From Fragilariopsis cylindrus CCMP1102 (Eukaryota; Bacillariophyta; Bacillariophyceae; Bacillariales; Bacillariaceae), in contig FMBT01000456.1 of assembly GCA_900095095.1 (NCBI GenBank), forward strand, positions 30,478-94,477: a DNA stretch of 64,000 bases, read 5' to 3'. Under the pieces are notes generated by a model. That model ran no database searches and was not told where the DNA came from. It worked only from the letters and a program-made list of their open reading frames with translations. The translations under genes were made by a program, and so were the position numbers. Below are positions 3,697 to 64,000 of the stretch, one piece after another; position 1 is the stretch's first letter, and the number at the start of each line of letters is the position of its first letter.

Positions 3697-6600
3697 TTAT
3701 TTTTTTCCTTTCTTTTTCTTATTTTTCTTTTTGCGCTTCTTCACCTCTTCTGCGACTTCTTCTGTAATCATTTCGAAGGCAATAGCTTCTGCCGCATCCT
3801 CCTCTTTCTGCTTCTTCTGCTTATCGACCACCAAAGTACCGTGTGCAACGGCAGCTCGCGCGAAGTTGTTCAAAGCCTGATCACTCTGTTTAGCAAGCGT
3901 ATGATTTTCGCCCAGAAGAACGGAAAACAATTGATAAGCACGTTTTTCATTGACAACTGCTAACTTAAAATTACCAACTCCCGCGAGTACAAGTGCAGAG
4001 CTTTTAGATATCATCGCCTCTAACAATCGATCACACGAGTCTAATGAAGTGGCTTTCTGGTAGAATCGAAGAGCCGTCTCGAGATCATTCATTCCATGGT
4101 AAACAGTTCCTATTTTATGATAGGCATTCGGAAGCTCCAGATGATTTTTTCCTCCAATTAATTCCATCAAGTAAATTGCAGCTTTGATGTGTTTGATTGC
4201 TTTGGAAGCCTCACCGGCAGCCAAAAGGCACTGGAACATCACAAAGTGAAGATTAATCACATCGGGAGAGTCGAAACCAGAAATCTGAGTTTGAAAACCG
4301 AGAGCCCGTCCTGCATTTGCAGCGGCAACAGCAGGTTCTCCGGCATCGTATAAAATTGATCCCATGAGATCAATGCATCTTACGACACCCGGATGAGCGG
4401 GAGTATCGCAAACCCTTTGGTATAACATAGCTGCTTCTTGGGCAAAATCTAATGCCCTAGATAACATCTTTTTGTTATGATACACGTGCGCAGACTCTAG
4501 CGTGGCTCTAGCATCAGGAAGAGAAATATGAAGTGCGGGGAGCCCAGTAGTCGGGGCGACACCGCATGCAACAAAACCTTCGCTGTGCGCTGCAGCATGC
4601 TTCATAAGAGGAACGATGTCAATTATGTCAAGAGCTGAAATTGGGTACGACGAAACAACGGGGCCTCCTGAGCCTGAATCACTGCAAAGACATTTCGAGC
4701 CGACGTCATAGTTCTTTGCTGCCATGCGAATCCCGTTTCGCTGACAAACCCGGCGCAATAATGGAATATAAGGCGTTCGATCATTAGGAACGACCCTATT
4801 GAAAATAGTAAGGCTGTATCGAAAACGACGTCCAATTTCGTCTTCAATTTCAGTCCAGACATCACGGCGGCTTCGGAGAGGGATATTAGTAACGACATCT
4901 TGGCCGGTTTGAAAAATGTTAATCCGCTAAGTTCATCTTCATTAGGTTCATTCATTCCTAATTTGTTCATTCTCTTTTCTGTCTGAGCAGCTGTTTCTTC
5001 GCCTTCTGAAACAAGAGCACACAAGAAGGATGCGACAAGTTGCGATAGGCTACCAACATTTGCGCAGTTAGTGAAGCTCAGTAACGGTCAAGGACATGTT
5101 TGGCTGCGCGAGCTACCATTTCGCACTCCAATAACTCGAGCCAAAACAATGGCATCTTTCTGCGATCTAATTTCGAAACTTGGTTATTTTTGAAGCTATT
5201 TAACTGCATACGGTCTTTTTCTTCTTCCATCTGTGCAAGTTTCGCAAGTCGACCCAGATATCTACAATTGATACCTCTCTGATGAATAAAGTCAGTTAAG
5301 CTTTTGCCGTCATGCGGTACTGTATGAACAGTAGCCAGACGAATCTCACGTGTGACACCAGGGATGATATTATCCCAAAGATATTCTGCTGCATTTCGAA
5401 CCATCTCTTCATCTTTCTTGATCTGCTCGAATGCATCATTATCAATGCCTTCAAGAGTTTGAATTTCAGGAAGAAAGACGTTTACATTGAATCGTAATGA
5501 GTTCAGATAAGCAATATCATCTTTTGACATATCTTTCTTTCCAGCAGAATCAGTCTCAGCGGGTTTGTCTTCTTTAGACTTGTCGTTGTCGTCGGCAGTA
5601 GAATCCTTCTCCTTCTTCTCTTGAACATATTTTGCCATTTTCATTTGCGCATAGTTTGATACAAGTTCGCTGCGAAGAACGGCAAGAGTCCATTCCTCAT
5701 CGTAAAGATTTTCAGGGATTCGAGCATTACTCACGAAAGCTTCGTTAGTTTCTAAATGAGAATCCCATTTTCCAGTTCCGCCATCGTTTTTGGGTACCCA
5801 ATTCGCATCACGAGGGGTTAGCCGTGTCATATCTAGGACATACTTTCGCTGATCACTTCCACGAATTCCTTTTGCCTCAAGCGGAGCACACAAGTCAATT
5901 GTTGGACTAAGGCTATCATTCGTTTCATCATCGACAGGTTTGTCATTCCCATTCCCAACAAATAGTGGAGATGCACGCTTTGCATCTTCGATCTCAGCAA
6001 TACGTTTGGGTGTTAGCGGTTGTCTTGGCATGGGACGAGTTGCTATCATGAATCCTTTTCCGAGGGTATTCTCAAAAAGCTCGTGCATCTCCTCATCCCA
6101 AACTAAAGGGACTCCCGTCTCAACTGCTCCGTACAGTAATGTGTGCGTCTTTTCTCCACTTAAAATTCCCGGCAATATACTCTGACAAACAAACCTTGAC
6201 CCAAGATAATCGACTACAACAGTAGCTAGTGTATGCAGACCAGTCCGTTCCATACGATGTAGTGCTCCAAGACAATGAAGATCACGAGAGGCTGACTTGC
6301 GAGCTGCTTTATCTCCTTTTGCAACCTTGAAGGTTTCAAGTCCAGCATCGACAGCACGGGAGAAAAAAATGTTATTGTGCAAAAATACCTGCGATCGCAA
6401 AGGTTCGTTGGGATTCATCGGTGTTACCTGACCGTCACTGATTGCCTTTACTCCTAGTAGTATTGCCTCTCCAAAATCAGTCAAGACCTTATTTAACACT
6501 CTGAGAAGAACAATGAATGGTCAGTTATGCAAGAAATGATAAGGAGAGAGAGAAAAAAACCCGGTACAAATGTATAGATAACAATAGACGTACCTAGCGC

Positions 6601-8512
6601 GTTCAATCCTTTCCAACAAACTTCCCATGGGCATTTCTCGAGCAACTTGAAGTTCCTCATTCCAATCGCGAAGAGATCCACCCCGGACATCTACACCAAA
6701 TGAATTCGAAATATCATCCTCGGCCTTTGCAGGACTGTACACATGTTCGCAATTCCTGTTCCAGGAATTTTCCGCTTCGGATTGAACTCGAGGGACGGGT
6801 ACAAGCCATGAAGGGATTTGAATGAGAGCATCGATACCTTCCGATGCTGCTGCGACCGATGCTTTTTTATATCCTGGAAAGTCTCCACGGATCGCAACAC
6901 GAAAGAATGAATGGAACGGACCATCCTCATTAATTTTTGCCATGAGTTCGTTACGAATTTCCGATGCTTCAAGTGCCTCATTCCAAGAATCACAAAATGA
7001 TTTGGAGTGCAGAAGTAAACAATCTAATAATTCATGGGAGAAACAGGGTGTCGCTGCAGGAGAAGGATTGAATTTATAGTCTCCTTTTGTTAACGTCGAC
7101 CTATTCACATAGAAACCTAAGGAGGTAGCTGAGATACTGACAAGTTCTCCATCAGGTAAAGTGACCTCCAGATATGCAAGATCGCCGATGAATTGACGAT
7201 ACTGTGGAGGCGGATGAAAGCCACTATAACAAATATTACAAACAACTCTTGTTTTTTCCTCAATCTCGTTCAATCGAGGAATGATTTGTTTCATCAACTG
7301 TTCAGTAGAGATATCATCTGTATATCCTCCTTCTGTTAATAAATTATTTGTATTTGCGTTTGTATTCGAATTCCTTTTCTTTCCATTCTTCTTTTTATTC
7401 TTCGTCGTCGTACTTTTCTCTTTCGTCGAACCAGTACAAGTATCCGAAGAATCGTTTAAGTACAAGGTTGGATCTTCGCCACAAGCGTAGTAAAAGAATT
7501 TTTTTAGATCATATATATCTGGAGACAATGATTTTCCTGCTGGGAATACAGGCATATCCTTCGGTGGAGCTTTTATGGATTCTTTTTCTTGTTTTTGTTT
7601 TGGTACAACGCTTTTTTCTTCTTCTGTACCTCCTTCTTCTTTGTTTTCGACAGGAGAGTTTTTCTCATCATCTCCATTTTCGCTTTTCGTTTCTTTTTCG
7701 CTTGACGGCGTTGACTCGGTTTCATCGCTACTATCACTAGCACTGCCACCACCACCACTCTCGTCGAGTGTAATAGAGTTTGGTGCATTACCGTCCAGTA
7801 ATGATCTCAATCTGACAATGTGATCACGAATTAAGGCGATATCATATCGTTCTAATACAATTCGAAAGCCGGACCCATCTTTTAATCCATTATTTTCTTC
7901 ACCATCGTCATGAGCCACTAATGCTGATAAATCTCCAAACTCATCTAAGACCATCTCCTCAACTTCAACCTTAACCTCTTTATCGTCTGATGTTGTTGTT
8001 TTGTTGTTCGCGGAATCATCATTTAACTCTAAACCATCCTGTAAAAACGACTTAACTACTACACGGGTTGAAATAACAGAATCTAATCCAGTATATGGAG
8101 ACGCACCTGTAGGAAGAGACAATATTGTTGACGACGACGACGACGACGATGATGATTTTGCTGATGTCACACCATTCTCGAGAACGAATCGATAATTCGT
8201 AAGATGAGAATATCCACGAATTTCACTTAATGCAGCCCTGATAGATTGAACAGGTTCCTCTGGTCGAATTGGTGGAAGCGGAATAACATCATCCATTTCA
8301 TTATTACGGCGACCTTCCTTCTTCTGCTTCTTTTGCTGCAAAGGAGGCAAAATCACCAGATTTTTGAATACCAGGTCCTGCTGGTTGACAACATCATCGT
8401 CGACGTCGTCGACATCAACAGTCTTCGCCAGTGCTTTTTCGTCGTCCTCTGCTTTGACTAACATTGACTCTGCGATGACGGCTGTATCTGCTCGTACATC
8501 CGTATCCACCAT
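3697..8512 (-). CDS. CLU: Clustered mitochondria protein CLU / eIF3-associated (TIF31-like)
   Basis: Proteins of this family bind mRNAs for mitochondrial proteins and govern mitochondrial distribution in the cytosol. Exon 1 (8512-6594) holds an acidic N-terminus, the CLU_N block beginning DVIPLPPIRPEEP, Ser and Asp runs, and a GSF_CLU-like segment (YRQFIGDLAYLEVTLPDG). A 93-nt intron (6593-6501) follows, then exon 2 (6500-3697) with the CLU domain, an eIF3-p135-like block (VWTEIEDEIGRRFRYSL), TPR-like repeats and a Lys-rich tail. The frame breaks twice inside conserved sequence, near 5080 (RY-L-S, one T short) and near 4927 (one C short). Adding one base at each gives exactly 1575 codons including stop. 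An 80-nt intron at 5085-5006 was considered and rejected, because the sequence across it matches the family (SLSQLVASFL). Probably an assembly error rather than a pseudogene. Confidence 0.9.
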
Positions 8513-9027: not shown

Positions 9028-11977
9028 ATGACGAGCTGCGTGAGAGTACTTTCTATTCAAGCTTTGGATTCATTTTCATCGATCTTATTGGTATCGCCCA
9101 ATGGGTACGTAACATAACTGTTGTAACTGTCGTCGTAATGTCATACAAGACATGATCACACTTCACTATTTACTCTGTATGTAATTGTAATACTTACACG
9201 GTTCGAATTCTTTTTTGTTCTTTTTTTCTGTTTCGGTTACCTTTTTCTTATATATAATAAAAAAATTAAGAAAAAAAACTCTCGTAAATTGTGGAGATGG
9301 TTGTCAACGTATATTCTTAGAATTCGGACAAAAAGTATCGACTGTTGACCGGATTTGTCTTACCCACTTGGGACATGAAACAATCGGTGGTTTGCCTGGA
9401 ATGATACTAACATCATCTGATGTAATCAAGCAGGCTACAGAAAAATCTAAGAGTATGCTTAAAAGTAAGATAAGCTCAGGAGGAGGAGGAGTTGTTGTAC
9501 AAAAACAACAAGGCAAACAACGACAACCACCACCACCAGGTCCAGGGCTTACAATAGTTGGTCCTAACGGTACACAAAAGTTTCTTCGATCCCTTCGACA
9601 TTTCATGAGACGAGACTCATTCCGAATAGAAGTTCAAGAGGGTGCTTACAACCAAAGTGCAACCAAGTGTGATACAAACGGCAATAATAATAACAATAAT
9701 AATAACAACAACAAGCAAAAACGAGGTGGGAAAGGAGATATTAAAAACAGCAACCATACTGATGATGATAGTTCTTTTCTCGTTCAGTCCATTGCAGCGT
9801 ATACAACAAAATCCGATAATTCGACAACCGATTCTACAATAATTCAGTCCAAGAAACGTCCTCGCACAACCGAAGAAACAGAAGAAAATCGTACTATATT
9901 AACATCGCAGCAGCAACAGCAACAGCAACAATCAACATCATATCACCACAAAAACGAACAGCAGTGTCATAAAAATCATTCCAATCAAGTTTTATCTTTC
10001 CTTTTTACCACACCACCCATTGCAGGAAAATTTTTAATTGAAAAGGCTAAAGCATTGGGGATACCTAAGGGTCCACTATATAGACGACTTAAAGCGGGGG
10101 AAACTATTACCTTTCCCAATCCTTCTTCGTCAGATAAAACTGTCACCGTAGAAAGCCATCAGGTTGTTGAGCCTAGCAGTCCCGGCGTTGTTGTTGCTGT
10201 TTTATGCTATCCTAGTCTTGATGTTCTCAACCAGCTGCAAAAATCAAACGAGATGAAACAATTTCAGCGACAAGAGCAACAACAACAAGGAAAAGACAAC
10301 ATCACCACTGATGATCAGAATCACGACAAGAGACCTGTACTGGAACTAATTGTTCACATGACATCGCGAGAAATATTTGAATCTAATACTTGTAGTACAT
10401 GGAGGAAATCCTATTATGGAAGCTGTGTTCGACACTTATTTGTCCGCACCGAGACAGCTACAGGTATTGATCGAGTAGTGACTCCCCCTTGCGATGATAG
10501 TGAGTCATTAATGTCACCATTTCATTCTGCACATTCGGGTGCTCAACTACGATCTATGGTGTGTCCTTACGTGTATAGATCCCCATTACAAGAAAACGAT
10601 TTCGAAAATAGATTAACGATAGATACTAATCGACAAGAACAAACAATAATTCCTCCTGGTATTGAGATTGAACGTGAAGAAACAACAAAAGATGAGGAGT
10701 CCAATGTAGTTTATGCCGTACCTCTTCTAGAGTATGTCTTACTCCCACGTCCAAAACGTGGATTTCAAAATGGTGATGCGTGTAACCAACACCGGAAAGA
10801 ATTGAAGAACGATGCCCAAGTTTTGCTAAATACGTCGGGTTGTCTAGATCGGGCAAATCAACTACTAGAGAATGATCGTGTAGATAATAAGAGTCATTGT
10901 ACCGGTGGTGAGATTTTGTTTACGGGTACAGGTTCAGCTGTTCCGTGTAAGCACCGTAATGTGTCTGGAATTTATGTACGAATGGAAAATGGCAATTCTA
11001 TGCTACTTGATACCGGAGAAGGAACGATAGGACAATTATTACGAGCTAAGCAACAACAGAAGCATCGAGGGATAGGTGAAGAAAGTCTGGCAACTGTTCT
11101 AAAGAATATCAAGGCAGTTTGGATAAGCCATCCACATGCGGATCATCATTTGGGTATAATTCGGTTGTTAGAAGAGAGAAAGAGGCTTGTTTCCGATAGT
11201 GATCCAATTGTGTTAATTGCTCCTCCTAATCTTTTATATTTTCTAAAAGAATACGAATTGATCGAACCACGAGTGGTTGGTAGTTACATGTTCCTCGATT
11301 GTCGAACTCTAACAACCAACAGCAACAACGATCGAAAAACATCTCCCAAACATCATGAAACGCTAGCGCTACAACGGCTAAAGGATGATCTAGGAATACA
11401 TTCGTGCACATCGATTCCCGTAGCCCATTGTGCCCATTCGTTTGCTGTTGTATTTCACGGTACAGCCTTTGGTTCATTGGCATATAGTGGTGATTGCCGT
11501 CCAAGTGAAAATTTTGCAAAGATTGCATATAATGCAGATTTACTGATTCATGAGGCGACCTTTGCCAATGGATTGGAGGCTGATGCGGTTGTTAAGAGAC
11601 ATTGTACTGTGGAGAAGCATTGCGTATAGCGACAAAAATGAATGCCAAGACGACCGTGTTGACTCATTTTTCTCAACGTTATCCCAAGATTCCTGAACTT
11701 GATTTTGGTATATCGAATACATTTTCTAGCAGTACGACGACAACGACGACGACAGACAATGCCTTTCTTTGCCATCTGGTATGAAAGTTATCCCCGCTTT
11801 CGATTTCATGGTATTACACCAACCAATATTGCTTCTGCAGCTATGCTTACACCTGCATTACAATTATTATATCCTGACGATTCTGATGATGCGATGGGAG
11901 ATGATACCATGGAAAAGTCCGAGGCACAAGCCGCACTGGAGGTACCTGGTTTATTTGCTCAGAGTGAACTCCTCTAA
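9028..11977 (+). CDS. ELAC2: Ribonuclease Z, long form (tRNA 3'-end endonuclease, ELAC2-like)
   Basis: This enzyme cuts the 3' trailer from precursor tRNAs. Exon 1 (9028-9104, MTSCVRVLS...) joins exon 2 (from 9271) across a 166-nt intron in frame, giving SPNGKKTLVNCGDGCQR, the expected first lobe. The N-terminal half carries poly-Asn and poly-Gln inserts (9680-9720, 9907-9932). The catalytic lobe has FTGTGSAVPC, DTGEGT, the zinc motif HPHADHH (about residue 647), IHEATF and LTHFSQRYPKIP. The frame breaks three times within 200 bp: near 11611 (before GEALRIA), 11769 (before LPSGMKV) and 11811 (before ITPTNIA). Each needs one extra base, and with them the gene closes at 929 codons including stop. 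The broken stretch retains family motifs, so I read this as sequence error, not decay. Confidence 0.9.
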
Positions 11978-12152
11978 ATTCTGTAGTAATCATTCTTCCA
12001 CAGCGAAAAGTCAATTCAGTTGAAGTATCTTTATTCTATACGATGAAGCTGAAGCAGATATGATAATAAAATAAAAATGAAAACACCACTATTCTACACA
12101 CACACACACACACACGATTCGATTATTTCTATTATGTTGTGCTCTTTTTATA
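11978..12152. repeat. Convergent spacer with (CA)n microsatellite
   Basis: An AC dinucleotide run at about 12096-12115 lies between the converging RNase Z and ECH1 genes. Confidence 0.65.
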
Positions 12153-13094: not shown

Positions 13095-13191
13095 TCTGTA
13101 TTATTAGTATAGTAATATTATCTTCGTTCTTCGTTGTATGCTCAAAGTTTGAACTAAGCTATCGTAACTTTATTTGGTGACTTGCTTGACA

Positions 13192-13213
13192 ATTGTACAA
13201 TTAATTGTACAAT
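13192..13213. repeat. 22-bp perfect palindrome
   Basis: The arm ATTGTACAATT is followed immediately by its exact reverse complement. It could be a cruciform or a dimeric-protein binding site; its use is unknown. Confidence 0.7.
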
Positions 13214-13383
13214 ACGGTACCGGTATTACATCAATAGTCTTGTGATTAGAATTCAGTGTACAGTAGAATATTTTTTTAACTTTTTCCTGCCGCGGCCCTA
13301 TTTTCTGATTTTCGCGCATGAAAATAAAAATAATTTACCTCACAAATTACTAGTAATGTCATTAAAATTGCAATTTCTTGATC

Positions 13384-14130: not shown

Positions 14131-14159
14131 TGGTTAGAATTGAAATAAATTATTTTTAC

Positions 14160-15792: not shown

Positions 15793-15830
<38 letters not shown>

Positions 15831-17897
15831 ATACGGGGATCGATCTCAGCGGGATGACGAAGAACTTCCCTTTTCAGCTGAACAATCCGATCAATTGACC
15901 ACATCACTTAATAGAATAAAAATACGTCGTAATAGTGCAAGATCAAAAGGATTTACAGCCGCTGGAACAAATACTAATAATAATAATACGAATTCTACCG
16001 CAACTGTTCCTAACAGCAGCAAACCGTCAAAGAGGAGAAAGTTACAACGTAGAGGAATGGAAATGCTAGTAGGAGGAGTTCCAATCAATGCAGATCCTCC
16101 ACAAAGATGTGTCGAATTAACGTACCAACACGATAAGAGTGTTAATTGGAACGAGGTGATAGCAACGAATACTCGTGACTTTGGACCGATGTATTATGGT
16201 CCTAGTGTCACTGAACTATCAAAAGAAGAACAAGGACTGTACTGCGAATTTTTTGTCAATTCGACTTTGAAATGGAACGTCTGTCCGAAAGATCTTAGAT
16301 CTATCTTGAACAAAAATGATGTTTCCACCGACGACGAAGAAGATAGTTCTACAGTCGAAAACGATGAGAAAATATACGAAAGTAACAATAATCGAATAAC
16401 AGATCCTGGCACGATAAAGGAATCATTTAAAAAAGCATCCATATTGGTTGAAGACGGACCCTTGAGCGTGGATTCCAACGTCGAAGAACTAAGTGGTGAA
16501 GTACTATTTTCGATGGGTCTTTCTAAAGAAGAACTGGAATCTAGCGGAAATGTTGTGTTGGAGCGGGTTCTTGCAACAGGGATATCAACCTCTGCACAGT
16601 CCACAGGGTTTGAGGTCGTCATTTCCAAGCTACGCTTATCCGATCAAGGAGACGGAACGACACTGATTTCTGCAGAGTTCACTCTTACGATAGAAAATAA
16701 TGAATCGATGAATTTTGCAGAATCCAAGAGAAGTGCAATCAGATAAATTCTTTTCTGGCGCAAGCATTAGATGACGGTGATATGCAACTTGCAATGGCAG
16801 CTGCTGCAAAGAAAGAATTGGAGTGGCCCGAAGAGCTTCGGAACCGAATAGTAGAGGAATTTCTTTTTGATGACGACGATGGAGATGGTCCCTCGGAAGA
16901 GGGTAATACAGCAGGCGAAGATCTTGTTATAGCCGTTTCCGAGACGAACCAAGAATTGACAATAGATTCTTTAACAATAGATTCTTTACTGAATGATCTA
17001 AACTACGAAGTTCAAGGATTCAAAAGAGATCAATCCGATATACCATTTGGCATGCCAGGGAGTCCAGTCTACGCTAAGGATGATATCTTTCTCGGAGGAG
17101 GTAATGATGGAGTGTTCTGGAATTACGCAGCAGACAACGCTGCGAATGCACCATATCAAGGGAAGCTTGGTCTACGGTTGGTGGATGCTGTCGAAGAAAA
17201 AGCTAAACAGAGACATCCACGCGTAATTGCAATTGGCGATGTCCATGGCTGTATAGACGAGCTCCAAGACCTTCTTCGAGAATGCAATTATGGACCCGGT
17301 GACATCGTAGTATTCCTTGGGGATTTGGTCAGTAAAGGTCCCGATAGCATGGCAGTTGTTCAAATGGCACGTGAAATTGGTGCGCTCGGCGTTCGTGGTA
17401 ATCATGACTTTGAGGTGGTCCGATGGCATCAGGCGATTAAGTCAGGTGTTGATCCACCTGTGGTTGGCTCAGAACACTATCATATTGCAAATTGTCTTTC
17501 GAAGGCTGATATGAAATGGATGTATAGTTTACCTTGGTACATATCAAGCCCAGATTTAGGCGCCTTGTTCGTCCACGCAGGATTTGTTTCTGGAATCCGT
17601 CTCGCTAAACAAAATCCTCGTTTGATGATGAACATGAGAAGCATCCTTCCTGATGGTACTGTCACATCAAAGTTTTTTAATAATTGGCCTTGGGCTAGAC
17701 TTTGGGATGGCCCACAGACAGTTCTGTTTGGTCACGATGCAGATCGAGGGCTTCAACAATATGAACATGCTATAGGGTTAGATACGGGCTGTGTCTACGG
17801 TGGTAGGTTAACAGCATGTATCCTTCCAGAGAAGAGACTTGTTAGTGTTAACGCAAAGCGTGAGTACTTCAAATATCGCAGAAAACATTATGACTAA
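14806..17897 (+). CDS. Plastid-type N-terminus and low-complexity region joined to an ApaH-like metallophosphatase
   Basis: The first 60 residues precede a hydrophobic stretch (AASTIILILTSNLLMMSQGF) that resembles a diatom signal peptide with a Phe-containing cleavage motif. Hundreds of Ser/Asp/Asn-rich residues follow, including an Asn run at 15797-15829, then an ordered block (CVELTYQHDKSVNWNEV) that I cannot name. The C-terminal third is a PPP-family phosphatase of the bis(5'-nucleosyl)-tetraphosphatase (ApaH-like) type, with metal-binding motifs GDVHG, GDLVSKGPDS, GNHD, FVHAG and FGHDAD; such enzymes hydrolyse dinucleoside polyphosphates or related pyrophosphates. One base is missing near 16740 (AI-K-INSFLAQ). 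Adding it makes 1031 codons including stop across both halves. A 15-bp tandem duplication at about 16959-16989 encodes TIDSL twice. Two separate genes remain possible. Confidence 0.72.
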
Positions 17898-24114: not shown

Positions 24115-26244
24115 CTAATAGTCATTCAATACCATTAAAGTTTCATCAAGTTGTATGGCAGCATTGTCTAATCGTTCCAGTCCTTGGCAAAACCTAGAAA
24201 ACATTAACTTGTCCAATTCGTTTTCATTTTCCAATTCATTTTCTGCCTCTCTCGCCCTTTCAATCCAATCCTTACCGACTTCAACTTCGTGTTGCCGTCG
24301 CAATCTTATGTTACATAAAGCTATGCAGACATTATCAGCTGCATTACGCGTACATCGTGGCCGAGAATACCCCCACAAGTAGATCATACTGTTTGGGTTG
24401 TGCTGCTTTCCCTGATTGACGTTGAAAAGGTCAATATACCTATCTCTGTACAATCGGTGGAGCAATTCGCGGGTATCCTTTGCGGGGACCATGGCAGATT
24501 CAGCAACCTGAAGTTAAGTTAAAGGTAACACCAGAGAAAATCAATGTGAGGATGATAGGATACTTTGTAGAATTAATGCATTATGAATTACTTGTATTAT
24601 CACAAACGTGTTCTTACCTGATCAGACTCCATAAATCCATGCATACGGAGAACAGGAATGATTCGCGCTGCGATCTCACCATGACTATCAGATATGATCT
24701 GTACACGAGTACATCAAGGAGAAATACAGACAATAGTTAGTGACAGAAAGGACGATTTCATACACCATACAGTAATTGTTGATTACGCTTGTTTACGTGT
24801 ATGCTTATTACTCACTTGATGTACAATCCGGTCACGCAAGTATTCCACCAATCTTCTGGTCTGTATTTGAAACTTAGAATGTGCCGGTTGTCCCGGGGCT
24901 ACTTCGACTTGTTCAACTACAACTGGATCGTGTACATGTGACAATTCGACTAACGTTTTATGAATATTGAGAACAACACCACCCTCTCTTTTTTCATAAT
25001 TCTGAATGACAGCTTTTGGTAGATATTTGAGTATCTTCTCGATGCTAAAATTGTGAATGGCCTCAAAGTCTGATATTGGGACAGCAGAACTGGTGTTGTT
25101 GTCGTCGTTGCTGCTGCCGTCGCTATTTTTACTACTTGTCTTCATAACAGCATTTCCGTATCGTTGTGCAGCTGCAAATTTGAGTGCTGCGGTTACAATT
25201 GATCCCGACGATTGAATTTTGTGGTTGTACCGTTCCGCCACCAGCCATCCCAAACTTACGGCCCGTAATTGCTCGTGAAACATGTTAATATTGACTCTCC
25301 AAATCGCCTTTGCAGGTATATTTTTGTATGGACCATTCCGTAGAAGAGATACAACAGCAGGATCTTCGTCGTCGTCATCGTTGTTGTGTGTTCCGTCGCC
25401 TGTTGTTTCGGTTTTCACAGTAGTATTGGTAAATCCTAAAGATTCTTCTGTGAGTTCGGCTTCCACTTCATCATCCTCTTTGTCCATGTCCTTTACTACA
25501 GGCACCAATTCAAGAAATCCACCCCGAGTCAGTCGTAGAAATGTTTCAAGGACAGACTGCCGACTGGTGTATCGATGATCCGACCTAGTACTTGATTGAT
25601 CATTATTTTCGTTCACATCTTGCTGTTGTTGTTGAAGTTGTTCTACAGTCAAAACAATTGCCTGAACCGTTCTAGCTCGACCTTGGACCAAGAGTGTTTC
25701 TACCAATGTAGCTGCAGTCTCATCCAGTGCCTTTTTAATAAATTCGACGAGGCGTGGGTAGCGGGGGAAGAGTCGAGCTCGATCTGCATCAATTTCGTAC
25801 GTGTGAACTGTTTTAGACTTGCTACCAGTATGATTGCCTTTTTTATGCTGACGGATGTTGTTGTCCTCTCTTTTACAATGACAATCGAATGTTGGATCAT
25901 AGTCAAAAGCGAAGCTCTTACAGATGCATGTGTTGGACGATCTCCATTATTGCTCTTACTTTTAAGGTAGATGCACGCAGCTTACCCAATCGCATAATTT
26001 CATGGCGTTCATCGGACCGGTGTACACTAATATAAGCCTTGGTTTCGATGGTGGCTATAATTTGTAAAAGGGTAGAGCCACCTTTCCGCGAAATCAAGGC
26101 ATCTGCTACAAGTTGAACTGTAGGTCCAAAGTAATCTCTTATACAATTGGAGGCCAGCGTGATGGTAGGTTCATGAGGAATTGACGATAGAGGTGATGTG
26201 GACGTAAATCTGGCAAATTGATTACTATTTCTGTTATCGGTCAT
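24115..26244 (-). CDS. POLR3C: DNA-directed RNA polymerase III subunit RPC82 (POLR3C/RPC3)
   Basis: This subunit helps RNA polymerase III initiate on tRNA and 5S genes. The order of family blocks fits: an N-terminal winged helix (ASNCIRDYFGPTVQLVADAL), DRARLFPRYPRLVEFIKKAL, WRVNINMFHEQLRAV, and MVPAKDTRELLHRLYRDRYI near the end. There are three exons: 26244-24816, 24698-24618 and 24507-24115, with phase-0 introns of 117 and 110 nt. Two one-base losses lie in exon 1, in an A run at 25960-25963 (STLK-SKSNNGD) and in a GG at 25865-25866 (KER-DNNIRQ). Restoring them makes exon 1 exactly 477 codons and the protein 634 residues, close to the family's length. It is divergent from the membrane-protein gene at 26715. 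Confidence 0.9.
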
Positions 26245-26714: not shown

Positions 26715-28036
26715 ATGACAATGCAGATAATGAACTCTATATTCCCTTTCGTTGTTGCGTTTGCTTTGGGTGTCGTTACCACTCCTGCGATGGCGACGGA
26801 AAATAATGATCCATCTGTAAGTTGAGCGGGGTTTGTCAAATCAATCATCTCTGTGTTTTGCGTGTACATTTTTGTGATATTCCTTATCATTTGTCCTCAT
26901 TCCTTTCATTCCTTTGATCCCTCTGATCCTTTCCGTCACTATAATGTTAACATTGCATACTTCATTCAGATCTACAAAACAACTGCGTTGTTTGAAATTG
27001 AATTCACGGCAGGAAGTGAATTTTCGACAGAGGATATCTACCACATAGAAGAAGCGAGTTCCTTGTACTTGAATGAATTACTGATGAACGAAGAATCTCT
27101 GCCGTTTGTTGAGCAACCAGATAGTATTATTGATGTGAATGTTGATGTCCAAACGCAAGAAGTGAACGGAAACGAAATCTCTCTAGAATCCGAGGTGACT
27201 GTCATTCATTATGGAAATGTAGGAATTATTGATCTGGCGGCACTTTTCACGTTTCTTGTAAATAGAAACAACACAGATTCACGATTTGTTTACCTTGATT
27301 ATCTTTTTCAACCAGATGCAACTATCGAACTCATTTCCTTTGATTTTGTTAGCGAATCTATCACCATGGCAAGCAACATCACGGCGATGTCCGATATGGA
27401 AATGCAAAATTCAAAATACACGGGTAATGAGAAAACACTTCTTATCGTAACAACCTTTCTTTCTATTACTCTTTTTGGTATGTCAGCCATTCTCATTTGG
27501 GTCGGAGGAGGATGGTTGATGCTTCGGAAAAAAGTTCAAGTTCTACTTCTCCGTGATGAAGAGCTCACACGCATGACGCAAAATCATCATCGAGGTCATA
27601 TTCAATCCAAACCAACGGCAGAAACAGAAGGAGGGGACGAGGAAGACCCCGACAATAGTCGTTCGAATGAAAGTCAGTCACATCTGACAAATCCCTCTGG
27701 AATGCTAGGCGTCAATAATCACTGTGATAATGGTTCATCAGAGAGAGGAGGACCATGTCTATTTATGGGCTTGGAGAAAGGACTCCTGCAAAAATTGGTG
27801 ACACATCAGACGATGTCGACACACCCATGAGCGTGATGAGCACTTATAGCAATTATTCGGATACAGGACGTGCTCCTATGGGAATTATGTCAATGCGGAA
27901 GCTGGTTCCATCAACTCAATTTCTGGAGTCTCAACACGACCAAGACCAAGACTCAGATTCATATTCAGATCATGACCAAGATGAAACAATGGAAGTGGAA
28001 CAGAGTTTTGCTGGGATGAAAAAGCTAGAATATTGA
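26715..28036 (+). CDS. Type I membrane protein with signal peptide, unknown function
   Basis: Exon 1 (26715-26816) encodes a signal peptide (FPFVVAFALGVVTTPAMA) and is spliced in phase 0 across a 153-nt intron to exon 2 (from 26970). The extracellular or lumenal part has acidic segments and possible N-glycosylation sites (NNTD, ASNIT). One membrane helix follows (27440-27520: LLIVTTFLSITLFGMSAILIW), then a polar cytoplasmic tail. The frame breaks near 27745; adding one base joins the tail to DTPMSVMSTYSNYSDTGRAP and gives 389 residues. This layout of signal peptide, variable ectodomain, single helix and Ser/Asp-rich tail fits diatom-specific families I have seen. No enzyme motif is present. 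It ends 35 bp from the converging gene. Confidence 0.75.
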
Positions 28037-43081: not shown

Positions 43082-45495
43082 ATGAAGATTCCACGAGCCG
43101 CTCTCCTTTTAGTCCTTGGGGCTGGCACAACTAGTGCATTTATTCCCGCAACGAAACCATTTTCCGTCGTCACACCAACCACATTATCAAGTACGAAACT
43201 ACAAGATGAAGAACTCTTCAAAGATTTGGATAGAAATGGTGCACTTGCGAGTGATATTGCAGATCTTATGAATGCACCGGGTAGTAGTACCAAGTCAAAG
43301 CCAACAAAGTCACCTCAAGTTTTGGAAGCCGAATTAATGAAAAGTACAAAGACAGATATTAAAAGTATGATGAAAAAGTATGAGGGATTATCTGGTGCAG
43401 CTATTGTGTACTTAAAACTCCTTACTGGTGGTGTTGAGGTTGTAAATGGATATTCTGGTGGTGCTGTTCTTCCTCTTTTGGATCAATTCCATCCAGATAA
43501 TCCACGTCATGCTGAAATCGGAAAGAAAGCAATTCGATGGATTACCAACTCGAATGAATCATCGTCTGGACATATTGCGGAGGGGTACGCCAAATCGTAT
43601 CCTGTCAACACGGAAACTGAACCCGTTGGTGTCGTCGTTGCTACATCAGGACCGGGTGTTACCAATTTAATCACCCCTCTACAGGATGGTATGTGTGATG
43701 GTGTACCTATGATCGTCTTGTGTGGACAGGCAGCTACAAATGCCCCAGAAGATGCATTCCAGTCGGCACCAGCTGTAGAAATTACTACACCGTGTACAAA
43801 ATGGAGCTACCAGATTAAATCGGCAGCAGAGCTTCCATTTGTGATGGATTATGCCTTTTATATTGCCACCCACGGCCGACCTGGTCCTGTCTTTATCGAT
43901 CTACCGAAAGATTTGCAAAACCAGATCTTAACACCTGAAATGATCGAATCGTACGTGGAAACGACTATTCCCGATAAGCAAGCCAGCGATGAAAGTGGAT
44001 TGGCAAGCTTGTACACCGGCTTTAGAGAGGAGAATGGAGAAACGTTCAAGGCGATCCGTCTTGGAAATGAAAAGAAGGGATTGTCCTTTGAGATTGACGT
44101 TAATAATGACTTTAAATTGGTACCTGTTGCTCAGACTATGGATACTTTCAACAAGGACCATCATGTAACAGATACAATTATCTGGAAAGCTAATGCACTT
44201 ACGGGAGAACCTGAAAATATTACCAAGGAAGGGAAGTTGGATTTGAATGATCAAATCACAACAGATATGCTGAACTATATTAAAAGAGCAAAGAAACCTA
44301 TTATTATTGCTGGACAGGGTTGTAACGATAGTGCTGAAGAACTCAAAATATTTGCCGAAAAGCTTCAGATTCCTGTCACAACTACCTTACACGCCCTTGG
44401 AACTTTCGATGAACGGCATGATCTTGCCTTGCAATTCGTGGGGATGCACGGCCATCCAACACCGAATTTTATGGTACAGCAGGCAGATCTTATCATTAAT
44501 GTTGGTTCTAGGTTTGATGATCGTATCACCGGACGGATGGCTGATTTTGTTCCTGAGGCGAAAAAAGCGGCAGAGTTGGGTATCGGTGGTATTATTCATG
44601 TTGACCTACGTCTATCTGAAAATTCCAAACAGATCGCACCAAACTTCTTTGTTCATTCTACAGGAAAGAAATTCTTAACTACAATGAACGAAGCTCTTGC
44701 CAAGGAAGAAGATTTAGTTCCTCAAACTTCAGAATGGTTGCAAAAGAAGGCAGATTTACAAAAGGAATACCCTATTACCATTCCTAAATTCAATCCTGTA
44801 GAAATAACTATGATCGATGAAAATGGAGTCGAAACAAAACGTATTCAGAAACCTTTATCAGCTCAAAGTGCTGTGCAAATGTTGGATAGAACACTTTTGG
44901 CTGCAGGGAAAATGGATGACGCTATTTTTACCACTGGGGTTGGAATCCATCAGATGGTAGCAGCGCAGTTGATCACATGGACACAACCGCGACAAATGCT
45001 AAGTAGTGGTTCCCTCGGTACCATGGGAGTTTCGCTTGGTTATTGTATCGGGGCCAAGTTGGCAAACGATAAAAAAATATGTATATCTGTAGATGGTGAT
45101 GGTTCATTCAACATGACTTTTACTGAATTGAAGACTGTTGCTGAACAAATATTCCCATTAAAATTTTGCTCCTTGATAATGAAAGTCAAATGATGGTCGA
45201 ATACTGGCAACGTCTCTTCCACGATAACCGAAAACTGGCTGTCCGAAATGAAAATCCCGATTACCAAACCCTCGCTAAAGCCTTCGGGATTAGAAGTCTT
45301 TACGCAGATAGTGAAGATGGATTTGAGGAGAAGATGCGTGAATTCCTCTTTGATTACCCAGATGAACCCGTCTTATTCCATGTTAAAACTAGACGGACAC
45401 CATGTCTACCTCTTGTTGCCCCAGGACAACCCTTAGATGATATGATCCTTGAAGATATCAACGTTGAAGTTGATCAAAGCGCAGCACCAAGTTAA
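43082..45495 (+). CDS. ilvB: Acetolactate synthase large subunit, plastid-targeted
   Basis: This thiamine-diphosphate enzyme condenses pyruvate in the first common step of valine, leucine and isoleucine synthesis. The N-terminus MKIPRAALLLVLGAGTTSAF followed by IPAT is a textbook diatom signal peptide with plastid cleavage motif. Family blocks follow: SGHIAEGYAKS with the catalytic Glu region, TSGPGVTNLITPLQDGMCDGVP, NVGSRFDDRITGRM, SSGSLGTMG, and the cofactor motif GDGSFNM. One A is missing at 45147-45149 inside EQ-N-IPIKILLLDNESQ. Adding it restores the remaining 110 residues (MMVEYWQRLF, including the conserved Trp) and gives 804 residues. The block around residues 310-400 between core domains is longer than in bacterial enzymes. 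Confidence 0.95.
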
Positions 45496-45863: not shown

Positions 45864-47666
45864 TCATCCCCGATCTTGACGTAGTCTCTCATTTTCTTCA
45901 CGCAGTTGTTGGTTTTCTAATTCTAACCGATCTATTTTTGTAAAGTGCTTTGACAGCGCAGTATCTATTTCTTGTGATTGCAAGTGAAACTGATTTATCA
46001 TGTCTATGTGTAAATTTCGTAGTTGTTCTTCCATTTCATCTTGCAAATTTTCGACCTCTTCCTGAACAACTTCGCGGATCCCTTCCTTATCAGTGTTGGT
46101 GTTAAGAGTTTGCTGCTCATTTTTTTGCTGTTGAAATCGAACAGTGTCGTATCTGTTGGCATCCAATGGCCGTCTCTTTGTTGGTGGAGACAATGGTGTG
46201 GTTTCTTTCGTCTTGTTGACTACACCAGTACTGCGTTGGGACTTTAAACCGCCTGTTAAGATATTTGGGGTAGATTTCGAAGCTGGTTTGACAGCAGGCG
46301 ACTTTGAATTAATTGATGCAAGCCTTGAATTTGCTGCAATTCTTGCAAAACGTGATGGCGATCCCGTATACGATTTTGGAGCAGCAGACGAAGGAGCCGA
46401 AGGAGACGAAACAGATGAAATTTGCTGTTGAGTTGTTATGGTTTTATTTTTATCATCGTCGTTGTTGCTGCTGTCCGATTTGAACTTAGCTGGTGTAGCA
46501 TCCATTGGAAGTTCCATTGTGTTTTGGATCTTAACAATATTCGTATTATTCGTATTAACAGCAATATCATTTGAGTTGTTCTTTGTAGCAAGCCGTTGAG
46601 TCTTGACCCGTGGTGGTGGAGCAAAGTGCAAGGAATGAACAGGTCCATTTATTTGATACGATGCTAGCATCGTTTTTGGAATTCCAACATCTTTGGTGCT
46701 ATTACGAATATCGCAAATATAAATATCTCCTGATTCACAACCAACAGCGCACGTAGCTCCATTACTATGTAAACTCATTGACTGGATAATATTATTATCA
46801 CCCAAAGCACAAACTTCGTAACTCGTTCCTTCAGAAATTTGTGCGCAAGGACAGTACCATCTTGAGCACAACTGATAATCAAATTACTATTTATTGCTGA
46901 AAATGCTAATCCTGTAACGGCTCCACTGTGTCGTTGGGGTAATTCAAAAAGTGGAGAAGATTGACTATGATTAGTAATATCATACATATATATGCTTCCT
47001 CATTTGTTCCAATCGCACATTTGCTCGGTTCTAAATAAGAGATGGAATATTTTGTGAATATAGAATCATCGCCATCAGGCAACTTTAGAGTCCCCATAAA
47101 TAGTCCATCACGCAAATTGTACACATACATAGCCGATGACGACAAACTCATCACGTATGTATCTGTAGGATCGAGGGATACTTGTAGTGATGGAGTGGGA
47201 TCATTTGTGGTGTGAAAATATTGTCGTACTCGTGTCTTTTTCTTTAAATCCCACAAACATATAGCTCCATACTCGTCACCAATACACAGATAACGGCTCT
47301 TGCCCCCAAAATTAATAGTATTTGCTGCGGTACCCGCAACACCATGACGATGCTGCTGTTTTTGGTTTCTTTCATCGTGTTGGAAGGAATCTAACTGTTG
47401 TCCAGTTTGTACAGAAAGTAAAACAATATTATCATGTTCAAATTCGTCAGTTGAAATTCCAGATGAGGTCGCAATTACCATCTGATTGTGATTCCAAGCG
47501 AGACTTGAAATTGGCACCCCGTCATCATCATCTGGATAAGGATTAAAAACACGAACATTGTTTTCTTCTCGATTGGGATGTAAATCCCATAAAATAACTT
47601 CCGATTCAGAAAGAATGGCGAGCGTTACATTTGAGGACGGCGGAATCGATGTATTTGTGCTTTCAT
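45864..47666 (-). CDS. NEDD1: NEDD1-like WD40 protein (gamma-tubulin recruitment)
   Basis: NEDD1 docks gamma-tubulin ring complexes on spindle poles and microtubules. WD40 repeats are visible: LAILSESEVILWDL, SRYLCIGDEYGAICLWDL, SAMYVYNLRDG, AVTGLAFSAINSNLIISCAQDG and TCAVGCESGDIYICDI. A Ser/Asn-rich linker follows, then a C-terminal coiled coil (VQEEVENLQDEMEEQL, HIDMINQFHLQSQEI, ENQQLREENERLRQ) that closely follows the NEDD1 tail. Two breaks are clear, near 46989 (EAYI-MYDITN) and 46838-46840 (LAHK-ISEGTSYE). A third near 47634 links the ATG at 47666 to SSNVTLAILSES. With three bases added the gene is 602 codons including stop. The true start is the least certain part; an additional upstream exon is possible. 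Confidence 0.82.
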
Positions 47667-48050: not shown

Positions 48051-49129
48051 ATGATACTGCTAGCTGGAGTGCGATGTAAAATACGTGTAAATCTCATCTT
48101 GACCCTTCTTGCGTTATCATTATTGTTATCGATATCTGTGCAACGAGCATTTGGGCTTATTGTAACCATACCAGCTTTGCGTCCTTCGTTTACTTCAAAA
48201 CCTCCCTCTGGGATGTTCCTGAAAATACGAGAGAAGGAACAGTAACGGGAAGAAAAAAGAAAAAGAATAAATATGCCAAGTTTTCCAATACAGACAAAGT
48301 CGAATTAGACCCGTTCGAGGCTCTAGTGAAAGAATCACAACAAAAATTGCAATCTATTGAATTAAAAAATGAAGAACAAATTCAACAGAAGAGAGAAAAA
48401 GTGCTACCACCACCTCCACCCGAAGCTACCACGAAGTTAGAATTCCCGAACAATAAGGATATTGATCCATATGATCCTACTACTTTTGGTTACATGGAAA
48501 TTGGAACAATTGTTGGGCCACATGGTGTGCATGGATGGTCAAAAGTTCAAGGCTGTACAGATTTTCCTGAACGCTTAACTCGAGCAGGTATGCCACTACA
48601 TATGAAACCTGTTCGGAAACGTGCTCCTCGGAAGGTTATTTTAGCTAGTGGAAAATTCCTAGGAGATGATCAATTTTTAATCCAATTGCAGGGGTGTTAT
48701 GATCGGCTTGCGTCCCAATCTTTGAAGGGTTCGATTTTATACTATGCGACGCAACAAGATACTGTACAACGAACAGACGATGAAGTTCTAATTTCTGAGT
48801 TGATCGGATTGTCAGTCTATAGAACCGATACAGATGACGATGAACAAAAACTAGTTGGTAAGATTTCAGGAGTAGTACTGGCAGAAGAAATGTGTGCCAT
48901 TCCAGGATTGCTACATGATATGCTCGAAGTGGAAGCGACAAGAGAGGTGACAGATATCGGATTACCTCAAGATCTTATTCTCATCCCTATGGTACCTGAA
49001 ATTGTCATCAAAATTAATTTGGAGGATCAACTGATTCTAGTAGATCCGCCCTCAGGACTTTTGGATTTAACCTACATAAGAGAGGAAAAGGTAAAGCTCA
49101 AGGGTCTATTACCCCCTGCCAAGGAATAA
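48051..49129 (+). CDS. rimM: Ribosome maturation factor RimM, plastid-targeted
   Basis: RimM binds ribosomal protein S19 and helps mature the 30S head; here it should act on plastid ribosomes. The N-terminal membrane-like stretch (LILTLLALSLLLSISVQRAF) ends in a diatom-type Phe cleavage motif. After a Lys-rich linker the RimM barrel begins with YMEIGTIVGPHGVHGWSKV and FPERL. The PRC-barrel part includes LLHDMLEV and LILIPMVPEIVIKI, close to the bacterial VPFVxxVV signature. One G is missing at 48210-48212 (PPSG-DVPENTREG). Adding it yields 359 residues. The bacterial-type protein with a plastid leader fits a cyanobacterial origin, which is an inference. Confidence 0.9.
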
Positions 49130-56088: not shown

Positions 56089-57131
56089 ATGGCAAGCGCT
56101 ACTGATAACCAAACAGAGATCACTTTGAAGGGAAGTGTCGATATTGTTTCCGAGTTTTTCTTTTATGCTATCAATTCCATTCTTTACCAACGTGGTAAGT
56201 ACTGTGTGATTCTTTCATCTTTTTGTATATAATCTCTATCTTTGATAATGTTATTGATGATAAAATGGTTGGATGCATTACAGTTTTAGTTCTTTAGTTC
56301 TTTATTCCTTTAATAACCACTGTTTCGTATTTCCTTTTTTTCATTCACTACGTACCATCGTGCATCGTTTCATCGCTTTTACGTTTTACTATGCACTGTA
56401 CAATCATTTATCTCTTTTTAGGAATCTATCAGCCAGAAACTTTTAAACGAGAATCAAAATATGGACTTACGGTCCTGACTTCTACCGACGAAGGTTTGCT
56501 AAAATATCTTGCTCAAGTTATGGGACAAGTTGAATCGTGGCTAATGAATGGGGACGTACAGCGACTTGTTGTCGTCGTTAGTGGAGTCGATTCGGGAGAG
56601 ACATTAGAGCGCTGGCAGTTCAATGTTGATTTAGAAGGAGGAGAAGATACTTGTCTAGGAGAAGAGAATCAAAAGCCGAATCAGAAATCATCTGGATCAT
56701 CATCCTCGAACAACAGTAAAAAAAACAAAAAAACTACGAAAGAAATTCATGGTGAAATCCAAGCTATCATTCGACAAGTTACAGCGAGTGTCACTTTTTT
56801 GCCTCTCCTAAGTGAGCCGTGTTCATTCGATCTTCTTGTTATACCAAAAAGGATGCCGCCGTTCCAAAAAATGGGAAGATTCCGATCCATGTTACATCGA
56901 AAACAGCCAGTCGGTCAAACTTCGTAGTTTTACAACTTCTGTGAGTTTATATTTAAAGCGATATACATAGTTATCGTTTACGTGATTTTTGTTCTTTATT
57001 TTTATCTCTAGTCAATCAGAGTATACAGAAAGCAGTACTAACATCACCTTTCTTTCATATAATCATCATCTCAGGTTCATAAGGTTGATTCTATGGTTGC
57101 CTACAGAGAAGCTGATGAATGGGAACTTTAG
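56089..57131 (+). CDS. MAD2: Spindle checkpoint protein MAD2 (HORMA domain)
   Basis: MAD2 delays anaphase by binding CDC20 at unattached kinetochores. Three exons are 56089-56194, 56422-56940 and 57075-57131. The first splice recreates ILYQRGIYQPETF, nearly identical to the family. Next come ERWQFNVDLEGG, EIQAIIRQVTASVTFLPLL and the safety-belt region. Two one-base losses lie 30 bp apart: TT at 56839-56840 (LLV-YTKKD) and an A run at 56867-56871 (VPK-KWEDSD). With both restored, SVKLRSFTTS joins exon 3 (VHKVDSMVAYREADEWEL), giving 227 residues. A Ser/Asn/Lys insert (about residues 113-136) lengthens a loop compared with animal MAD2. Confidence 0.93.
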
Positions 57132-59002: not shown

Positions 59003-59432
59003 ATGAAGGATTTTTTATCCATGGTATTGGTTGGTGTTCTATGGGGTTGCACCAATCCACTTTTACGCAAAGGATCCGAAGAGGTCACAGCGTCATCGTC
59101 ATCGTCATCGTCATCGTCGTCATCTTTTACGTCTCCTAAGAGTAGTAAAAGTGAAGGGAAATATACGTTATAATTGAAGCCCTAAAATCATTTTTAAATA
59201 TTAAAGTATGGTTACCATATGTAATCAATCAATAGGATCGGTGGTATTTTATATCCTATTAGCAAATTCTAATATTTCTATGGCTGTTCCAATCTGTAAT
59301 GCAATTGCATTATTATTTTCATTTTTAACAAGCTCATTATTGGGTGAGCCTATTGAAAAACCATTCCAAACTATATTAGGTGCTTCTCTTATATTAATTG
59401 GTGTTACGATCTGTGTTTCTTCCCAAGAATGA
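59003..59432 (+). CDS. TMEM234: TMEM234-like small membrane protein (EamA/DMT superfamily)
   Basis: The start MKDFLSMVLVGVLWGCTNPLLRKGSE matches the first helix of the TMEM234 family, a four-helix half of a drug/metabolite-transporter fold. A Ser run encoded by a TCA/TCG repeat (59090-59120) follows. The remaining helices are seen in VFYILLANSNISMAVPICN, LLFSFLTSSLLGEP and ILGASLILIGVTICVSS. Two frame breaks separate start and end, near 59170 (KYTL-IEALKSFLNIKVW) and near 59225 (YVI-NQSIGS). One base at each gives 143 residues; the second could instead be loss of a 4-bp CAAT repeat unit. Function in protists is unknown. Confidence 0.75.
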
Positions 59433-60866: not shown

Positions 60867-63010
60867 ATGATGAAAAGAACGGACGAAGAAGTCTTCGTCG
60901 ATAAATTACCTGGTTCTCATGTAAAGCGTCGTCGTCCTAATCGTAATCTTCTTCTTGATTGCGACGACGCAAAACAGCAGAAGCCGCAGCAGCGAGAAGT
61001 CGGACAAGAGAACGACAAGCATTTAGATTTCAACCTATCTTTCATGGAGAATCAGGCGAGGTAGGACAACAGGATTTACCATGGCATCAGCAACATCATC
61101 ATCGTTCGAACGGTCCGAATCGATGTATCTTGAAGCCGACAACAACGATATGAAGCTTCGGAAAGGCCCATTGAAGAAACGACTCTCTCCGAAGCTTACG
61201 CCTGCATCTACGCTAAGGCAAGAGTTATGGATACAACTACACCTGCGACTTGGACTGCGACTAAAACAGCGCCTGAAACTGCGACTAAACTCCCTCCGGA
61301 TCTATTAAGATCATACACGAGTGGGTCCGGTTTCTCGAGTCTCTCTAGTCTCGGTGCATCATTTTCTTCGTCAACACCATTATTCTGTCGCAAATTGATG
61401 TCCGCTGATACCAAGAATGGTGGTTATTGTATGTTCCTCCCCAGCTTTCACTCAAAAGAACTTTACGTAAACAATTGATGGAAGAACCACTTCTTCATAC
61501 CCCGATTTCTTTGTCTACTTCTATGAAAGAAAGGCTCCCCTTGTCAAGCGGCACGTTACCGTCTTTCAGCTCGTTAGATAGCTGGTCACTAACACCACTG
61601 GCTTGCTCGGTCGCGAAGAAATCAAAGTCTTTCCACCCAGTAACGACTACTCAAAAAATTGGAAGCCAGGAGGAAACGGGAAATACGCCATACAATGCAG
61701 CTTCGACAGTAGACATTATCCGAATTACTCATCCTTACGGTACCAATCCTCATGTTACTATCAAGAAGCGTTTAAGGACACCCTTTTTTTCGCCGTTAGC
61801 GTATGATTTTGGATCTACAGCTCACAATGCACCACCAGAAATAATATCTCACGATCGGATGGTCCCTTCCCTGAGAATACAATTGAAGGCAAGACCGCAA
61901 ATAATAATGGCGGTACGCTACCAAAAGCTACAGGAGCTAAGGGACAACTGGAAATCACTAAGAATCCAATTAGCAAAGGGAAGATACTGAAGAAAAAAGT
62001 TGCGACGTTACCAAAAGTTGCAGAAGCTAAAGGACGATCGACTATCACTGAAAATGCAGTAGTCAGCAAAGGGAAGACTTTGAAAAGAAAAGTTGCGACG
62101 CTACCAAAAGCTGCAGAAGCTAAGGGACGATCGGAAATGGCCTCCGAGAATGCAGTCAAGGACAAGACTATGAGGAAGAGTATTGGGAAGCAACCCAAAT
62201 ACAACCGAAATTAGCAAAAGCTATGGCACGACTGGATATGGGCGTCTCTGAGAATGTAATGGTAGGCAAGAATATGGAAAAGAACGCTGCGAAGAAACCA
62301 AGAGCGAAAAAGAAAATCGTTAATCCGTTTTTGGATCCTCTGCTGTTCGACAATGGATCAATCGCTCTCACCAAAGGCCTTGTAGATGTGGTTCTACCAG
62401 GTAAGCAAAAATATCTCTCTCTCTCCCTCTACATTTTCTCATTTGTCTTATCTTGTCTCGTTTCTCTCACCGCCAACATTTTTTTCTGTTTTACCACGTT
62501 TATATCATATACAGGTGCCTTAAGTTATACTGCGAATGCTTCCACACTGGTGCCTTTTGTGACCCTTCTCTGTGTAATTGCAAGGATTGCCAAAATACTT
62601 CAGCGCACAATCAGTTAGAAGAACCAAGAGGACCTCGAGTTGTGGCCATGCTGAAACTATTGAACAAAAATCCAGATGCTTTTAGCGGAGGCGGTAGAAA
62701 GGCCAACACGAAGGGCTGTCGCTGCCAAAAGAGTCGGTATGTCATTGAATTTTTCAGTGTATTGCAGCCATATTTGTGCATCGTCATTCATTAGATAATT
62801 ACTTTGCCTCACTATCCATATCTTATACTTATACTCATACAGGTGCCTCAAAAAGTTTGCGAATGCGTCGCATCGGGAAAGCGTTGTACAGAAAGTTGTC
62901 TATGCAAGGACTGTCAGAACACGTCCCAAAAGGCAGACGATCGCCAGGAAAGCCCGGAAGAGAAGCAAGAATCACTTTTACTGGACGATGCTGCGTCAAT
63001 TGTGATTTGA
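60867..63010 (+). CDS. Tesmin/TSO1-like CXC (CRC) DNA-binding protein, frame broken at 8 sites
   Basis: CXC proteins (LIN54, TSO1, tesmin) bind DNA and control cell-cycle and developmental genes. Exon 1 is 60867-62400, exon 2 62515-62736, exon 3 62843-63010. The two Cys-rich motifs straddle the splice sites: PCRCGSTR joined to CLKLYCECFHTGAFCDPSLC and CNCKDCQN, then KGCRCQKSR joined to CLKKF-CECVASGKRC and CLCKDCQN. The linker ML..NPDAFS is also typical. Exon 1 is basic and Ser/Pro-rich with three repeats of about 92 bp (61908-62135; VATLPKxAEAKGRS). Breaks near 61062, 61105, 61218, 61427, 61875, 62208, 62370 and 62857 each need one base. Seven in exon 1 and one in exon 3 make all phases agree. 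Function as a LIN54-like regulator is inferred. Confidence 0.8.
61908..62135. repeat. Three coding repeats of about 92 bp in the CXC gene
   Basis: Segments starting near 61911, 62000 and 62092 share ACGCTACCAAAAGCTGCAG-like sequence and encode TLPKATGAKG, TLPKVAEAKG and TLPKAAEAKG. The last two are most alike, indicating recent duplication. Confidence 0.75.
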
Positions 63011-63264: not shown

Positions 63265-64000
63265 TTATCGTCCAAATTTGTCAAGCACCTCCTGAGCTAG
63301 TCGAATGTCAGCTTGGACTTTCTTTCTCCGATAGAATTGACAGGCGCATCCATCTCCTCTACACATGATATCGGAATGGTAAGTATTATGAATTCGTTGT
63401 GCAGCGGACCAGAGTTCAGCGTAGGATTTTTCCGCTTCACGGAGGCATTCCAATTTCCCAAGTATATCTCAGCTTCTTTCGGGACACAATGTTTGCATAA
63501 ATGCCCGTCTTGGGAGCTTACAGGCGCCCTGCAACCCAAGCATTTAGCTGTCTTTACCGCAAACATCATCAAGCTTCCCTTACGTGCAATAGGAGTCGGA
63601 ATGAAGATCTTTCTGGTATGCTCACCTTGAAGCAATGACTTCTCGACGTCATCGATGATAGGTTCGAAGATTCTTGTAAGGGGCTTTGAAAGCTGATTTG
63701 TTAGATACCATTTGCAGTCCAGTGCTAGACTATTCTCAAGGACATAAATGGGATCTTCGCCTCTTTCATATGTTTTTGCTCCCTTGGCTCCGGTTATAAT
63801 GACGTATGGAACACGATCACCCATCTGTGGTGCAGTACCAGCGTCACGTTTTTGCATCCTTGCAGCAAGTTCAACGTGGGCTTGTTTCATCTTGTAGTCT
63901 TCCTTCTTTCCGCCTAGCCCAAGCGCATAGTCAGCACCCTTGTTCAGACTTTTGTGATAACTAAACGGGATATGTCCATCTTGTTTTGAAGCAAATCGCT
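63265..64000 (-). CDS. POLD1: DNA polymerase delta catalytic subunit, C-terminal part
   Basis: This is the end of the main lagging-strand replicative polymerase; the rest lies beyond the right edge. Visible blocks are NKMDISRLVITK, KQAHVELAARMQKRDAGTAP, GDRVPYVIITGAKGAK, EDPIYVLEN and LSKPLTRIFEPI. The zinc-binding CysA (CLGC..., CKHC) and the CysB iron-sulfur module (MCRGDGCACQFYRRKKV) follow, with a normal C-terminus LDKFGR. Two one-base losses are in A runs near 63950 (ITK-SLNKG) and 63455 (LGK-LECLREAEKSY). Both are inside conserved, essential sequence, so they are most likely sequence errors. Confidence 0.93.

Follow-up and report, generated by a model that had tools for sequence, protein, structure and literature searches.

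Two kinds of described system come close to what we report here. In the nanopore assembly example given by Kastor (PMC12007338), most insertions and deletions (indels) were false deletions, tied to homopolymers of two to eight, false insertions being fewer; the same account cites Watson and Warr on residual long-read consensus indels that fragment genes. In the ciliate Euplotes, genome-wide +1 frameshifting is described (PMC4759687, PMC5011710, PMC10235951). We analyzed a stretch of 64,000 nucleotides of the diatom Fragilariopsis cylindrus CCMP1102, hereafter the window, in which many genes change reading frame within their coding sequence. The window corresponds to positions 30478-94477 of FMBT01000456.1 (our C537), a contig of 94,477 bases whose last base it includes, in an assembly of 67.9 Mb and 818 contigs. 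As in long-read consensus error, the window exhibits single-base losses without nonsense, its genes are broken every 1-2 kb, and the breaks fall partly at homopolymers. It differs from the Kastor example in that all 22 shifts whose sense could be determined go the same way, and homopolymers are absent from several of the sites. The window resembles Euplotes in that many nuclear genes carry frame changes, whereas the Euplotes shifts, in the accounts cited, are opposite in direction and tied to stop codons; the window changes follow no fixed motif and have open-frame copies in the same assembly.

We conclude, with a probability of roughly 93%, that the frame changes are mainly consensus errors of the assembly and that the feature is thus an artefact. 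The evidence comes from redundant contigs, paralogs, homologs and a frame model. The changes run in one direction, no in-frame nonsense is called, one window site is contradicted by a second contig, and like differences separate other contigs of the assembly. The assembled consensus of the nuclear DNA would accordingly have suffered about 0.6 one-base losses per kb, each loss in coding sequence surfacing as a -1 frame change; the source may be long reads whose depth or polishing was insufficient, and the remaining window sites would have the same cause.

Second copies of the same DNA

One site that bears directly on this conclusion lies in the metallophosphatase fusion gene. A second contig, C118 (15,112 bases), duplicates window positions 20001-25147 (5,146 vs 5,147 bases) and, judging from the offsets, spans about window positions 8847-25147 minus about 1.19 kb, mainly a 1.17-kb element. 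At the phosphatase site, C118 carries one G that is absent from the window and reads LTIENNESMNFAESKRKCNQINSFLAQALDDGD in a single frame, whereas the window switches frame. Of the four window sites under C118 cover, this is the one at which C118 has the base. For two further pieces of the window, 40000-41000 and 45001-49100, DNA searches of the assembly returned no second copy. DNA searches with 20-kb pieces of the window say little by their silence on second copies, as the window's own match went unlisted and one of the searches missed C118.

Redundant contigs elsewhere in the assembly show the same kind of difference. Between C347 and C90 we found four single-base gaps and no substitution in 3,674 columns, every gap lying in C347, where one lost base breaks the frame of a CCT gene; C90 has this gene intact. 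Taken over nine contig pairs (11 locus pairs, the longest alignment of each, with some C221/C498 columns counted twice), 38,068 columns contained 28 substitutions, 43 one-base gaps and 8 longer gaps. Runs of 2 or more contain 31 of the 43 one-base gaps and runs of 3 or more contain 17, as raw counts uncorrected for background. This amounts to about 0.56 one-base gaps per kb in each copy, comparable in magnitude to the 22 window sites per ~36 kb called coding, the latter being model segments summed by hand that do not contain all 22 sites. Three alignments were excluded from the count: C451/C608, with 26 substitutions and mixed gaps at a contig end; C221/C498 over L029/L030, where one end is divergent; and a second stretch of C32/C551 that has 10 mismatches and 9 gap letters. 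Of note, the CCT gene at the extreme end of C451 (L069 1-400) has several mixed one-base differences from C608, as if consensus quality drops at contig ends. Comparing redundant contigs of one assembly in this manner provides a read-free test for consensus error.

Direction and position of the frame changes

Genes of the window with family or structure matches include CLU, RNase Z, enoyl-CoA hydratase, the metallophosphatase fusion, INTS6, an RPC82-like subunit, PreP, acetolactate synthase (ALS), ELP1, RimM, MAD2, TMEM234, NifU, a CXC-domain gene, PTPA and the end of POLD1. The sites considered, in window coordinates, are as follows.

5079..5087, minus strand: CLU frame change 1, a -1 shift called at all penalties from -11 to -5, in a 7-nt interval with no slippery site
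4624..4926, minus strand: CLU frame change 2, a -1 shift called at 4866 at all penalties from -11 to -5
11596..11628, plus strand: RNase Z frame change 1, -1; the alignment to ELAC2 in PDB stops here and the joined fragments align across
11730..11783, plus strand: RNase Z frame change 2, -1 by the frame model; homologs do not span the site
11663..12022, plus strand: RNase Z frame change 3, placed at 11812 and -1 by the frame model; homologs do not span the site
16704..16745, plus strand: phosphatase-fusion frame change, called at all penalties from -11 to -5; C118 is one G longer
27731..27829, plus strand: membrane-protein frame change, a weaker site, -1 by hand reading; the model makes no call
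30247..30318, minus strand: PH-like gene, a single weak site, -1 by hand reading; the model gives no coding support
32369..32563, plus strand: acidic-protein frame change 1, called at 32433, -1 by the frame model
32749..32781, plus strand: acidic-protein frame change 2, called at 32774, -1 by the frame model
45145..45192, plus strand: ALS frame change, -1, backed by PDB homologs and the frame model
46907..46999, minus strand: NEDD1-like frame change, called at 46988, -1 by hand reading and the frame model
46776..46883, minus strand: NEDD1-like frame change, called at 46844, -1 by hand reading and the frame model
48080..48244, plus strand: RimM N-terminal frame change, a weaker site, -1 by hand reading
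56816..56926, plus strand: MAD2 frame change 1, from the frames; X-joined fragments align unbroken to MAD2 chains
56812..56943, plus strand: MAD2 frame change 2, near 56868, from the frames and the X-joined alignment to MAD2 chains; the sole slippery-heptamer interval of 19
59155..59172, plus strand: TMEM234 frame change 1, from the frames; TMEM234 model positions 1-29 lie in the first frame
59205..59234, plus strand: TMEM234 frame change 2; model positions 49-113 lie in the last frame and the joined pieces match 1-113
62199..62200, plus strand: CXC gene, base missing relative to the C340 paralog
62375..62376, plus strand: CXC gene, base missing relative to the C340 paralog; the corrected model places an extra base at 62369, beside the intron donor
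62855..62856, plus strand: CXC gene, base missing relative to the C340 paralog
63945..64000, minus strand: POLD1, a -1 change near 63946, where the contig ends; the first frame stops at 63946
25870..25921, minus strand: RPC82 candidate from model and hand reading, more likely an intron, its 3' end uncertain

Protein matches resume in a new frame across several of these sites. The open reading frames (ORFs) that flank CLU change 1 match Pfam CLU and eIF3_p135, the middle ORF 4623-5087 having no Pfam match, and past CLU change 2 the eIF3_p135 match continues in the next frame from model position 119. For ALS, TPP_enzyme_C model positions 1-77 lie in one frame and 72-151 in the next, and the POLD1 halves, when joined with X, align unbroken to human POLD1 869-1006. 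The frames of CLU, NEDD1 and RimM were read by eye against their presumed homologs.

The sequence-only reading had counted about 42 frame changes in 14 genes. Of these, 19 are well supported and four are weaker; for some genes the earlier count is too high or unprovable. The approximately 12 changes proposed for the PH-like gene are unconfirmed because the frame model sees no coding signal there, and one of the two claimed for RPC82 is better read as an intron: at 25870..25921 the model picks an intron at penalty -11 and an extra base at -8 and weaker.

That every change is a missing base holds for the sites whose sense could be determined, as the shift is -1 at 22 of 22 (18 from hand-chosen frames, one in POLD1 and three CXC sites compared with the paralog). 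The frame model, which allows for introns, was trained on long open frames and charges an equal penalty for a missing and an extra base, additionally calls a few extra bases. At penalty -9 it called 13 missing bases and 1 extra base in the window, and at -8, 14 missing and 2 extra; a version with corrected stop emission called 11 missing and 2 extra at -9, and 14 and 3 at -8. With 25 of 29 planted deletions and 29 of 31 planted insertions recovered, the model shows no directional bias. The three extra-base calls are open to other readings: 12934 is antisense to the enoyl-CoA hydratase gene, 25926 (RPC82) becomes an intron under a stricter penalty, and 62369 (CXC gene) adjoins an intron donor where the paralog indicates a missing base. 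Among the missing-base calls, 34986 is, on hand reading, an intron of PreP, and 48274 lies at the RimM frame start.

The CXC-domain gene (62184-62987) can be compared with a 94% identical paralog found on C340 and C325, the C340 copy being open in frame. Relative to C340, the coding part of the window gene is short by one base at three positions and nowhere has one extra, and its introns, with limits set by hand reading, are short at five places and longer at two. The frame model called 3, 5 and 7 missing bases in this gene at penalties -6, -5 and -4, with no extra base; since the intact ELP1 gene receives 1 missing and 2 extra calls at -4, the figure of 7 is soft.

Weighing the explanations

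Decaying pseudogenes with real small deletions would account for the clustering of changes in some genes (CXC, RNase Z) and for RNase Z changes that are common to two contigs, and real deletions exceed insertions in many genomes. Decay would nonetheless demand the joint loss of the core genes POLD1, MAD2 and ALS, and the CXC gene has kept its cysteines in the codons compared with the paralog; its nonsynonymous and synonymous differences per site (pN/pS 0.033/0.058) are weakly informative in the same direction. Moreover, the corrected model called no in-frame stop in the window at four penalties, as against 7 to 16 missing bases, in a test of moderate power given that its control finds 25 of 39 planted stops. 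We therefore regard decay as very unlikely. To allelic frameshift polymorphism between haplotypes we attach slighter weight still. C118 lacks about 1.19 kb of the window, mainly the 1.17-kb element, and may thus be another haplotype, but the four one-base gaps without a substitution between C347 and C90 are hardly expected of real haplotypes, and one-base gaps exceed substitutions by 43 to 28 in the nine pairs, whereas natural alleles are usually richer in substitutions than in one-base gaps. If nuclear genes often relied on programmed -1 ribosomal frameshifting, the slip would share the geometry of a missing base, and the 22 determined sites all have its sense. However, a zero-frame slippery heptamer X_XXY_YYZ occurs in just one of 19 bounding intervals, with 2.18 expected (standard deviation 1.29) from random coding intervals of equal lengths, and C118 at the phosphatase site and C90 in the CCT gene need no shift at all. 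The same two contigs bear on insertional RNA editing of nuclear transcripts, for which nothing direct speaks, although open mitochondrial ORFs would fit an effect limited to the nucleus: they carry the base in DNA. At sites where the base is present in the DNA of another contig, neither editing nor frameshifting can be required, and we lend almost no credence to either.

Several observations weigh against consensus error as the whole account. One is that C118 equals the window letter for letter over 11401-12000 (600 vs 600 bases), all three RNase Z changes included, a result that does not contradict editing. Errors made at random and independently in two contigs would not fall at the same places; the RNase Z changes must be systematic, stem from a consensus common to both contigs, or be real. 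We consider it a slim chance that some changes, chiefly these three, are real in the DNA, with frameshifting or editing yielding the essential protein although no canonical slippery site is present; if so, they would represent a rare case of nuclear recoding. C118 is also one base shorter than the window across 20001-25147. At 32 loci outside the window the corrected model called 14 missing and 7 extra bases (calls not checked singly), meaning that the assembly at large is not strictly one-sided, and the HSP70 copy on C693 has one base too many at a T run compared with a copy whose protein is 99.8-100% identical. The latter serves as an extra-base example only, the HSP70 genes on C693 and C612 being paralogs by DNA (85%). 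Bases are missing on both sides in C32/C551 (7/10) and C122/C509 (4/4), so that neither copy is simply the good one, and in contig pairs without open frames the faulty copy cannot be told. Finally, homopolymers explain part of the sites: several lie outside them, and runs of 4 or more occur at 2 of 8 tightly bounded window sites, again a raw count uncorrected for background. Consensus error, the cause that the sequence-only reading had proposed, is nevertheless supported by the phosphatase site in C118, the gaps between contig pairs, the lack of called nonsense and the lack of heptamer enrichment. Gene loss, pseudogenes or unusual decoding should thus not be inferred from this assembly.

Further observations

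The 1.17-kb element occupies window positions 13278-14447. It is 1,170 bp long, is bounded by terminal inverted repeats of 17 bp that match perfectly, and contains repeats spaced 195 bp; about a dozen more whole or partial copies show roughly 79-96% identity. Being absent from C118 by the offsets, it has the look of a non-autonomous DNA transposon that moved recently.

A search with bacterial-type small subunit (SSU) rRNA led to a 17.7-kb mitochondrial contig (L006, L007) with 49-kDa, molybdopterin-type and S10 reading frames, presumably nad7, nad11 and rps10; together with the genes of the window, these suggest a stramenopile, probably a diatom. All nine of the mitochondrial ORFs scanned match a respiratory or ribosomal family in one frame, which speaks for consensus error in the nuclear genes on the assumption that this contig is deeply covered. 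A search of the assembly for Photo_RC (PF00124) gave no matches.

Two places with nuclear ribosomal DNA (rDNA) were considered as a non-coding test and set aside as too degenerate or incomplete. One is a degenerate rDNA copy inside the 735-kb contig C108 (L009 623-5560) with parts of the SSU, 5.8S and large subunit (LSU) genes; the other, on C596 (L008 5074-5490), is a nearly normal piece of SSU rRNA followed by a run of N. On C221 (L015, L018), a 976-aa open frame contains an HSP70-like gene whose middle domain matches in another frame, probably owing to two introns without stops.

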